From Fructobacillus broussonetiae (lineage in GTDB: Bacteria; Bacillota; Bacilli; Lactobacillales; Lactobacillaceae): 64,000 bases of DNA. The stretch's first letter is position 1, and every line of letters begins with the position of its first letter. Positions 7,374-38,839 of this stretch are shown here, piece after piece. The translations under genes were made by a program, and so were the position numbers. Below the pieces are notes generated by a model. That model was not told the DNA's origin. It ran no database searches and worked only from the letters and a program-made list of their open reading frames with translations. The DNA is taken from assembly GCF_018437275.1 (NCBI RefSeq), contig NZ_JAAMFK010000006.1, positions 1 to 64,000 of the forward strand. The letters run 5' to 3'.

Positions 7374-7379
7374 ATAGGT

Positions 7380-7602
7380 GAACTCTGGTATACGCGTTGC
7401 TGCATTTACAGCTTTTTCCTTACAACCTTTTAATAGGGCGGGGAGCGAGCTAGTAATGGTTAGGCCTTCTCATTTGGTAAACCAGCGCTAGCTCCGAACC
7501 ACCCACCTCGACAATTTCGAGGAAAATCTGAGCGGCGATTAACGGTGCCAACAGAGTGTCATGGTAAAACCATGGAAGTCCACTTCGAGTGGGCTTTTTT
7601 TA
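7380..7602 (+). ncRNA. ssrS: 6S RNA (lacto-usp type)
   Basis: This roughly 220-nt non-coding segment lies between rarA and usp, where the 6S-like 'lacto-usp' RNA is known in Lactobacillales. It has its own promoter, a 5'/3' closing helix (ACTCTG near 7382 with CAGAGT near 7553), an inner helix built from GGAGC..GCTAG and CTAGCTCC around a terminal loop, and a 3' terminator (GTCCACTTCGAGTGGGC plus seven T at 7579-7602). 6S RNA sequesters the sigma-70-type RNA polymerase holoenzyme by mimicking an open promoter. The call rests mainly on synteny and a rod-like fold by eye. Downstream to 7801 I see no gene. Confidence 0.7.
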
Positions 7603-36643: not shown

Positions 36644-37291
36644 ATGTTTCCACAATCACTCATCATCAAAAAAGCCGACCTCCTCACCGTCTCTGAGGAC
36701 TCAACCATCGAAGAAGTCTTTGAACTCTTCGAATCCACCAAAGGCCAACACGTCCGCACCATCCCCATCCTAGACAAGACCGGCCACCTCTTCCGCGGAA
36801 ACATCTACCGTCAGCATGTCTACGAATACGTGGCCGAACAAGGCGACTTAACCAAGCGTGCAACCGCCATCATGCGCAACTCCACCAAGTTCATCAAGAC
36901 GACGGCCAACTTCTACGAATTGTTCTTCGCCATCCGCGACCTGCCTTACATCGCGGTCGTTGATGACGGCCACCACTTCGTCGGTGTGTTGACCCACGGC
37001 ACGTTGATGAACGTACTCGCCAAGTCCTGGTCACTGGCCAAGGGTGGCGTGGCCATCGCCGTCAAGGAAAAGGGTGGCCGCGGTGACTTGCAGAAGATGG
37101 CCAAGGTCATCACCAAGTACACCAACATCGAATCTGTCTTATCCCTTCAAATGGAAACAAACGAACCACTCTCCGTTCTCTTCACTTTGCCATTGACCGC
37201 TGATTCACCGGTCTTGCGCAAGATCATCACGCAGCTCGAAAAGAAGCGCTACTTCGTGGTGGCACAAGAAGATTTGTCACAATTTATGTAA
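36644..37291 (+). CDS. CBS-domain protein, CbpA-like
   Basis: A 215-residue cytoplasmic protein. Two CBS motifs fill the first ~140 residues (LLTVSEDSTIEEVFELFESTKGQHVRTIPILDKTGHLFRG and LPYIAVVDDGHHFVGVLTHGTLM), and an ACT-like tail follows (about 140-215). This CBS-ACT layout resembles c-di-AMP-binding CbpA proteins of Firmicutes, but ligand binding is inferred only. It is monocistronic; GAAAGGGAAG precedes the ATG. Confidence 0.78.
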   Translation: MFPQSLIIKKADLLTVSEDSTIEEVFELFESTKGQHVRTIPILDKTGHLFRGNIYRQHVYEYVAEQGDLTKRATAIMRNSTKFIKTTANFYELFFAIRDLPYIAVVDDGHHFVGVLTHGTLMNVLAKSWSLAKGGVAIAVKEKGGRGDLQKMAKVITKYTNIESVLSLQMETNEPLSVLFTLPLTADSPVLRKIITQLEKKRYFVVAQEDLSQFM

Positions 37292-37295
37292 AAGT

Positions 37296-37330
37296 CAAAA
37301 CCGAAGGCAACGCATTGCCGGCGGTTTTTT
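37296..37330 (+). terminator. terminator of the CBS-domain gene
   Basis: AAAACCG..GGCAA-CGCA-TTGCC..CGGTTTTTT. Confidence 0.8.
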
Positions 37331-37404
37331 ATTCGATTTTGGAATAAATCGCGATGTTATACAAAAGTCTATAGCTATGCCCGCGATAAGCTGTTATATT
37401 AACG

Positions 37405-37596
37405 TTGAGGTTTGCGGAAAGCCTAGGAGATTTCTAGTTGGACTTCGGGTGCCAACCCAGCTAACTCATGGCTATATTAGTGAGATTGTTTGCCAAGCTT
37501 TATGCTGGCAAAAAGCGCTCTCCTAGCTTTAAAGTTTCCGCGTACATATTTCAATAACAAAAAGCCAACCATTCCATGGTCGGCTTTTTTCTTTTG
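37405..37596 (+). ncRNA. unidentified structured small RNA
   Basis: This gene-free stretch can fold into one compact molecule. A long closing helix pairs GCGGAAA-GC-CTAGGAGA (37414-37430) with TCTCCTAG (37519-37526) and TTTCCGC (37535-37541). It encloses a hairpin GTTGG..TTCG..CCAAC (37436-37456) and a hairpin TTTGCCAAGC..GCTGGCAAA (37489-37512). A terminator follows (AGCCaACCA..TGGTcGGCT plus TTTTTT, 37562-37591), which also serves nupC from the other strand. A -10-like TATATT lies near 37395. It matches no riboswitch or 6S, 4.5S or tmRNA signature that I know. Because no plus-strand gene follows, it is probably a trans-acting RNA. Confidence 0.6.
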
Positions 37597-37615
37597 GCTA
37601 AAACTTGCTGAACGC

Positions 37616-38839
37616 TTACCAAACAAACAGTCCGGCAGTGGCTGCTGAAAGCAAGGAAACCAGCACACCGGCTAGGAGCAGGTACCCAATTCGACTCGAG
37701 ATATACTCGTTCTTTTCCTTGTTCACCAAACCCTTGAAGCAGGCCAGAATCATTCCGATGGTTCCGAAGTTCGCAAAGCTCGTCAGGAACACCGTCATCA
37801 CGATTCGGGCGTGCTCATTTGAGAAGAGTCCCTTACCAGCCATGATGAACTTCGAAATCTGTCCCATCACAACGAACTCGTTGGTCACCAACTTCGTTCC
37901 CATGTACTGGGCAAGGTGGAAGGCATCCTGGACTGAGAATCCCAAAAGGAAGGCGAATGGGAACATGAGGATACCGAAGATGTTTTCAAGCGTCAGCCAG
38001 TGCATACCGGTTAAAGAGAAAACCTGATCGATCAAAGCCGCCAGGGAAACAAAGGAAATCACTGTCGCCGCGATAATCAAAATCAGGCGACCGGCGTTCA
38101 GGATGGAATCCCCTAAGAAGGAGAAGAACGGCTCGCGCTTTTCAGGCTTTTGACTTGTTGATACTAAAACGTCATCACGTGCAGACACCTTCGTTGGGTT
38201 GAAAATGGAGGCCACCAAGATGGCACAAAGCACGTTCAACGGAATGGCCGTCAACACGTACTTTCCGGGCACCATCTGCGTGTAGGAACCGATAATGGCA
38301 GCCGACACACAGGACATGGACATCATGGCCAAGGTGAAGTTCCGCCGGGCCGACATCTTTTCAAGCTGTGGCTTGGAAACAGCCAACACCTCGGTGTTTC
38401 CAAGGAACATCATCTCGATGGAGAAGAAGGCCTCGAAGTTTGGCTGTCCGGTCACCTTGGAAAGTCCGCGTCCAATCCACTTGATGACCCAGGGCAAAAA
38501 GCCAATGTAGGTCAGAATGTCAAAGAAGGGCACCACCAAGAGGATTGGCAAGAGCGCCGCCGTCACGAAGTTCGGTCCCCCGTGGTTTGACGTCAGCCAC
38601 TCCGGCACCGCAAAACAGATTCCCTTTTCAGACACCGAAACAAGCCAGTTAAAGCCGTCGGCCGCAGCCTTCACTGCGATTTGACCAGCCTTGAACTGGG
38701 TAAAGAACCAAGCCAAGACCAACTCCATGGCCAGAAGTCCTGAGATGGACTTCCACTGGATGTTCTTCTTATCGTTTGAGAAAAGATAGGCCACGATCAG
38801 AAAAACAAAAATACTCAAAAAATTAACAACAATTAACAT
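37616..38839 (-). CDS. nupC: concentrative nucleoside transporter NupC
   Basis: A 407-residue CNT-family protein importing nucleosides with protons or sodium. It has an N-terminal helix trio, then the core with PFFDILTYIGFLPWVIKWIGRGLSKVTGQPNFEAFFSIEMMFLGNTEVL and the C-terminal NEFVVMGQISKFIMAGKGLFSNEHARIVMTVFLTSFANFGTIGM. It is divergent from rbsK/rpiA, so imported ribonucleosides could feed ribose into the pentose phosphate route. The intergenic region carries repeated half-sites. Confidence 0.93.
   Translation of the reverse strand: MLIVVNFLSIFVFLIVAYLFSNDKKNIQWKSISGLLAMELVLAWFFTQFKAGQIAVKAAADGFNWLVSVSEKGICFAVPEWLTSNHGGPNFVTAALLPILLVVPFFDILTYIGFLPWVIKWIGRGLSKVTGQPNFEAFFSIEMMFLGNTEVLAVSKPQLEKMSARRNFTLAMMSMSCVSAAIIGSYTQMVPGKYVLTAIPLNVLCAILVASIFNPTKVSARDDVLVSTSQKPEKREPFFSFLGDSILNAGRLILIIAATVISFVSLAALIDQVFSLTGMHWLTLENIFGILMFPFAFLLGFSVQDAFHLAQYMGTKLVTNEFVVMGQISKFIMAGKGLFSNEHARIVMTVFLTSFANFGTIGMILACFKGLVNKEKNEYISSRIGYLLLAGVLVSLLSAATAGLFVW

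Follow-up and report, generated by a model that had tools for sequence, protein, structure and literature searches.

A candidate orphan antitoxin RNA in Fructobacillus broussonetiae and its probable relation to RNAs preceding PBECR4 genes

Location and predicted structure of the RNA gene

The window analysed in this study, a stretch of 64,000 nucleotides from the genome of Fructobacillus broussonetiae, contains a predicted RNA gene on the plus strand (approximately 37407-37591), located between a gene for a CBS-domain protein and nupC. The features of the locus are listed below.

36644-37291 (+), CBS-domain gene (PF00571)
37392-37400 (+), candidate extended -10 promoter TGtTATATT with a weak -35, inferred from the letters
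37407-37591 (+), predicted antitoxin-like, orphan RNA gene; start inferred from the -10 element, end placed at the T tract; based on fold and homologue
37414-37420 / 37535-37541 (+), outer closing helix, GCGGAAA/TTTCCGC
37423-37430 / 37519-37526 (+), inner closing helix, CTAGGAGA/TCTCCTAG
37437-37456 (+), first hairpin, GTTGG-ACTTCGGGTG-CCAAC, with a loop conserved in relatives
37459-37461 / 37471-37473 (+), P1 (AGC/GCT) of a possible H-type pseudoknot, by analogy with related cores and a permutation test
37465-37469 / 37480-37484 (+), P2 (CTCAT/GTGAG) of the same possible pseudoknot, on the same basis
37489-37495 / 37506-37512 (+), second hairpin, TTTGCCA/TGGCAAA, from the fold; in F. ficulneus a second GACTTCGGGTG hairpin takes its place
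37543-37548 (+), TACATA tag (UACAUA in the RNA), directly 3' of the closing helix and 5' of the terminator
approximately 37559-37591 (+), intrinsic terminator AAAAAGCCAACCAT-TCC-ATGGTCGGCTTTTTT, read off the letters and formed in the fold
37616-38839 (-), nupC, nucleoside transporter gene (PF07662/PF01773), whose end lies at 37616

A first-pass annotation of the letters had described a 15-bp closing helix that encloses two hairpins and is followed by a terminator. Its letters and all 15 pairs are correct, but the helix is not continuous, being split by an internal loop into runs of 7 and 8 bp. Both hairpins (approximately 37436-37466 and 37489-37512) and the terminator were recovered in the predicted fold. 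The region of the first hairpin can adopt two alternative pairings, and the possible pseudoknot competes with the minimum-energy hairpin of the same region. Consensus scans of the locus for promoters and terminators listed neither TGtTATATT at 37392-37400 nor the 37559-37591 terminator. The latter is nearly symmetric and may also serve nupC from the opposite side; in relatives that lack the RNA, terminator-like hairpins are found at the same junction behind the CBS gene. As had been noted, no plus-strand gene lies downstream: minus-strand nupC comes next, and no RNase toxin gene directly follows the RNA. The GACTTCGGGTG motif is present as a single copy without tandem repeats, while the hexamer TACATA by itself is common, occurring at 13 places on the two strands of the window.

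Folded with its terminator, the RNA had a z-score of -3.32, and none of 200 shuffled sequences was equally stable. Folding energy alone is modest evidence, because the z-score drops to -1.96 without the terminator (34 of 1000 shuffles equally stable); conservation at a second, non-syntenic locus, described below, is the stronger evidence for the RNA. A protein-coding reading, based on a 49-aa frame at 37377-37526, was rejected, since this frame has no Pfam match and is broken by 1- and 2-base indels relative to the homologue.

The first-pass opinion that this is an unassigned structured RNA, unlike known riboswitches, agrees with a covariance scan against Rfam, in which no family reached its gathering score at the locus; the 11 rows listed at E <= 10 were all far below their gathering scores. 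The drum RNA family (RF02958) had no match in window positions 37250-37700 at E up to 10. 6S RNA and the RNA described here are alike in size, and both have a long closing helix. The separation of the two made in the annotation is upheld by the 6S RNA model (RF00013), which found no match at this locus and instead matched the window at 7379-7561. That 6S RNA candidate scored 42.2 bits, just below the gathering score of 46.4.

Homologues and their distribution

Among 100 genomes searched by blastn, four had matches besides the source genome, one of these matches being a relative of the RNA and three covering its terminator end only; a blastn search of plasmids and phages gave no match. The relative is the only full homologue found (G004:C28; 82% identity over query positions 33-169) and is not syntenic with the window locus. 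Scanning of genome contigs with GTYRGACTTCGGGTGCYRACC showed that its genome is that of Fructobacillus ficulneus JCM 12225, and gave a partial match in F. fructosus; another match, in Geomesophilobacter, was judged on its taxon to be due to chance. The pattern GACTTCGGGTGNNNACCCAG, with one mismatch allowed, was found at four sites in 3 of 397 genomes of the family, all of them Fructobacillus, the reversed pattern having two sites. Three viral contigs matched the GACTTCGGGTG motif in GC-rich sequence, and these matches were likewise attributed to chance.

The core of the RNA contains 41 consecutive bases identical to those of F. ficulneus, and the CTCAT/GTGAG pairing shows no covariation, being identical in the only full homologue. 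The F. ficulneus RNA carries two copies of the GACTTCGGGTG motif with a period of 52; in the second of these, and in a prophage array of genome G011, the stem of the GTTGG-ACTTCGGGTG-CCAAC hairpin is exchanged for GTCAG/CTGAC. The first-pass annotation had named mutation of the helices without compensation as a sign against the structure. Disruption of this kind is not apparent as far as the one full homologue can show: 7 of 7 pairs of the outer helix and 6 of 8 of the inner one are kept, the latter with one A-U replaced by G-U and two end pairs lost; there is no two-sided change, and neither helix contains a covarying pair. The fold energy of the homologue is not significant (z -0.92; 34 of 200 shuffles equally stable), and a 109-aa frame running into it looks like a chance occurrence.

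A covariance model built from the two sequences detected full copies only in the source genome and F. ficulneus among 60 genomes. It also gave a partial match, at E 0.0051, in an F. fructosus prophage and a single row from a different family with E 0.078; the F. ficulneus homologue, itself part of the training set, scored 161.5 bits. None of the 12 other Fructobacillus genomes has the RNA motif in the 330 nt that follow the CBS gene; a nupC-like gene lies there in six of them.

PBECR4 genes in Fructobacillus

In F. ficulneus a gene for a PBECR4 protein (L002:1676-2275; 199 aa; PF18813, E 1.5e-19) starts 42 nt past the aligned part of the RNA. An excerpt of PMC5512222 describes PBECR domains as predicted RNases with a BECR fold. 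The window contains no PBECR4 frame (best profile E 1.8), so the link between this RNA and a toxin rests on one full homologue.

Altogether, 4 of 13 Fructobacillus genomes carry five PBECR4 genes. All five are preceded by a foldable RNA and then by TACATA, 48-58 nt upstream of the start codon, and at four of these loci a terminator lies between the RNA and the gene, none being recognisable in F. ficulneus (G004a). One complete RNA-terminator-PBECR4 pair belongs to the genome of the window itself (G000:C1:64731-65360; L048:1330-2010), arranged in the order promoter (TTGACA/TAAAAT), folded RNA, AATACATATTT, terminator and 170-aa PBECR4 gene. This pair scored E 0.0094 with a covariance model, R1, trained without it. 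Weak R1 matches appeared in 13 genomes; seven lie in coding genes and are regarded as chance, and two of these seven outscore the own-genome pair. The pair is situated about 300 nt past a tRNA gene and about 190 nt before a gene for a pyruvoyl-type histidine decarboxylase (PF02329). At two further loci (L059, L074) stop codons interrupt the PBECR4 frames, and an RNA-like stretch with a terminator remains in front; orphan RNAs may originate from such interrupted frames.

The explanation that we favour, as a fairly probable one, is that the window RNA belongs to a new PBECR4-linked family of type III-like toxin-antitoxin systems, as an orphan present here without its toxin gene, and that it probably acts as a stand-alone, trans-acting antidote RNA. 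Alternatively, the locus could be the dead remnant of a PBECR4 pair that has lost its toxin, with a decaying RNA of no present function. The missing toxin, the two differing pairs of the inner helix, the mere two full copies in 60 genomes and the absence of the RNA behind the CBS gene in the 12 other Fructobacillus genomes all fit decay. Against decay, the locus still has an intact promoter-like site, closing helix, UACAUA and terminator, and the core is identical to that of F. ficulneus over 41 bases; we consider a dead remnant unlikely.

PBECR4 loci across Lactobacillales

Of 251 Lactobacillaceae genomes 27 carry PF18813, as do 53 of 395 Lactobacillales genomes, either in long proteins (at least 1000 aa) or in solo proteins of about 180-250 aa. 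In Lactobacillales other than Lactobacillaceae, the domain also lies inside open frames of 1000-1900 aa (L095-L098, L100-L102, L107, L109, L111). An alignment of 22 PBECR4 proteins, from which L054 was dropped, has only H58, L59 and G61 as invariant residues. The predicted structure (pLDDT 84.4, pTM 0.79) did not clearly match any solved structure in Foldseek (best E 0.25) or VIA-align (best Z 3.2), and all similarities were weak, including those to RelE-like folds (Z 2.1-2.5); ToxN is not among the matches listed, which excludes nothing. Five solo proteins had no NCBIfam match near a cut-off, and PADLOC returned a single weak row, which was PDC-M38B for that of F. ficulneus (E 0.0023), the other four having no row.

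The type III layout, as given in excerpts of reviews (PMC5086642; PMC12373285), consists of RNA repeats, a terminator and an RNase gene. The upstream regions of PBECR4 genes were compared with this layout, using 17 hand-picked solo loci outside Lactobacillaceae; by sequence similarity these form 10 clusters and thus are not 17 independent cases. A PBECR4 domain in a long protein (G186) and two start-less loci (G237, G253b) were left out of the upstream counts, and G106, with its short upstream region, was left out of the repeat and terminator counts and of the count of TACATA at -110..-28 that was compared with controls. A terminator-like site lies within 140 nt before the start at 39 of 45 Lactobacillales loci (23/28 in Lactobacillaceae and 16/17 in the others), the two control sets, window genes and other genes, giving 11 of 45 and 3 of 46 respectively. 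Direct repeats with a period of 50-56 nt, unmatched in 100 shuffles per locus, precede 22 of the 45 genes; they occur at 8 of 28 loci in Lactobacillaceae and 14 of 17 elsewhere, the latter corresponding to 8 of the 10 clusters.

Among the hexamers at -110..-28 of PBECR4 genes in Lactobacillaceae, TACATA ranks first (13/29, the next reaching 8). It was present in this interval at 13 of 28 Lactobacillaceae loci, versus 0/45 and 0/46 in the controls. As a universal tag it was rejected, since none of the 17 loci outside Lactobacillaceae has it there.

In many PBECR4-linked RNAs a short helix can be recognised by eye, whose loop pairs with the adjacent downstream stretch, as in an H-type pseudoknot. 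Among 20 cores that had been picked out visually for this pattern, the pairing of each loop with its own downstream stretch was better than permuted pairings, a result equalled in 0 of 5000 permutations and 0 of 2000 loop shuffles. In an alignment of eight class B sequences, the pseudoknot helix has two-sided changes in 5 of 7 pairs and 96% of cells pair, while slid controls fail; for the third helix 81% of cells pair, two sequences being shifted.

A known RNA family was found in the same position. Upstream of PBECR4 in G714 lies the Rfam drum RNA (RF02958; 46.4 bits), and stricter filters applied to 295 + 299 genomes gave three further matches. Three of the four matches (L099:1352-1447, L124, L159) adjoin a PBECR4 frame on its upstream side, with none beside L158. 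The numbers are small, but the adjacency gives a clear prediction. One of the matches, in G146, falls short of the gathering score and has a short PBECR4 frame.

RNA and terminator immediately preceding a coding region would also be expected if the RNA controlled the toxin gene in cis, as leader or attenuator, and were not an antitoxin, the window copy then being a stray leader. This is quite improbable in our opinion: tandem repeats are more in keeping with an antitoxin than with a leader, and RNAs of the family occur without such a gene behind them, both as the prophage arrays described below and in the window, where no plus-strand gene follows and hence no cis leader is present.

Related modules in prophage arrays

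The F. fructosus match is part of a non-coding prophage stretch of about 700 bases. Of 13 Fructobacillus genomes searched by blastn with this stretch, 11 gave matches, and of 28 others none did; six genomes have matches longer than 100 nt and the other five have pieces of about 28-55 nt, often from the 3' end. Ten prophage stretches from nine genomes (L029, L030, L031, L032, L033, L034, L036, L037, L039, L040; the partial L038 was dropped) contain TACATA 21 times, compared with a mean of 1.4 and a maximum of 5 in shuffles. Seven stretches have two or three copies and three have one, among them that of the source genome (L032). In strength, the helices closing just 5' of TACATA exceed those at random positions (n = 265; Mann-Whitney p 8e-5); the fold z-scores of the stretches range from -1.65 to -5.39.

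Most arrays hold several different modules, and one (L033) contains a tRNA. The gene ahead of the array encodes a phage transcription activator (phrog_36, phrog_2198, phrog_248) in all five stretches tested, adjoining the array in four of them and separated from it by two small frames in L039. Further downstream in L034 there is an HNH endonuclease gene, and in L032 the next gene encodes a DUF308 protein without a PHROG match. Neither ROOL nor GOLLD of Rfam was matched in L021 (E up to 5) or, at the gathering score, in L030, L033 and L034.

Class B modules from five arrays align closely with three RNAs preceding PBECR4 genes. The class B hairpin was found in 33 viral contigs, of which only 2 strongly match the whole model; in IMG/VR, two contigs have a class B RNA adjoining a PBECR4 gene. 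These similarities suggest that the UACAUA-ending arrays are phage antitoxin mimics, which would neutralise PBECR4 toxins.

The same arrays, with modules of one kind ending in UACAUA and mostly placed right after a late activator gene, could instead point to a small RNA of other function, for example structural or in packaging, for which PBECR4 neighbours are secondary. We hold this to be the least likely of the readings considered, since an RNA-like layout upstream of PBECR4 genes spans many genera and class B array modules are so similar to PBECR4-linked RNAs.

Proposed function

Under the favoured explanation of an orphan antitoxin RNA, the terminator between RNA and toxin gene in complete loci would keep the RNA in excess over the toxin mRNA; the RNA would fold, bind and block the predicted PBECR4 RNase in the way that ToxI blocks ToxN, and UACAUA could be a site of precursor cutting or of recognition. 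The window copy could be a trans-acting antidote left from a lost toxin-antitoxin pair, or could have been retained to protect against incoming elements bearing a matching toxin.

A broader proposal is offered tentatively, and we would sooner doubt than accept it as a whole. A widespread and as yet undescribed family of type III-like systems would have PBECR4 proteins as its toxins and drum RNA as one of its antitoxins; Fructobacillus prophage arrays near the head of the late operon, made of different antitoxin modules that each end in UACAUA, would disarm a range of host PBECR4 toxins, and the window RNA would represent a single such module on the chromosome. If true, this would explain what solo PBECR4 proteins and Rfam's drum RNA do, add one more toxin family to the RNA-antitoxin systems, provide a testable case of prophages with arrays of antitoxin-like RNA modules, and make the window RNA an example of a chromosomal stand-alone RNA antitoxin.

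Comparison with known systems

In the open-access library searched (subscription papers being outside its scope), no paper mentions PBECR4 or PF18813. Titles and opening parts of abstracts of open-access papers on type III systems include ToxIN, CptIN, AvcID and AbiF, and none of them names PBECR4. An RNA-controlled PBECR4 toxin family is apparently undescribed so far.

PBECR4 loci share with type III systems (ToxIN, CptIN and TenpIN, as well as AbiF-RCd22 and AvcID) an upstream RNA gene, repeats in many cases, a terminator and a gene for a known or predicted RNase. ToxI forms a pseudoknot, and the PBECR4-linked RNAs probably do so as well. They differ in that the toxin is a PBECR4 domain, that many of the Lactobacillaceae RNAs are single-copy, and that the window locus has no toxin; of the type III layout it retains the intrinsic terminator after the RNA. 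We class the window RNA as an orphan of a type III-like family and not as a complete type III locus. Drum RNA resembles the family of the window RNA in having, in three of its four matches, a PBECR4 frame directly downstream, whereas the window RNA itself does not match the drum model.

The prophage arrays have a parallel in phage PhiTE, which, according to an excerpt of PMC3475682, carries copies of a host antitoxin RNA; its pseudo-ToxI represents phage-borne RNA copies of a host antitoxin, as the arrays may do. Unlike PhiTE, the arrays mostly consist of several different modules, in one case with a tRNA, and are mostly located behind a late activator gene.
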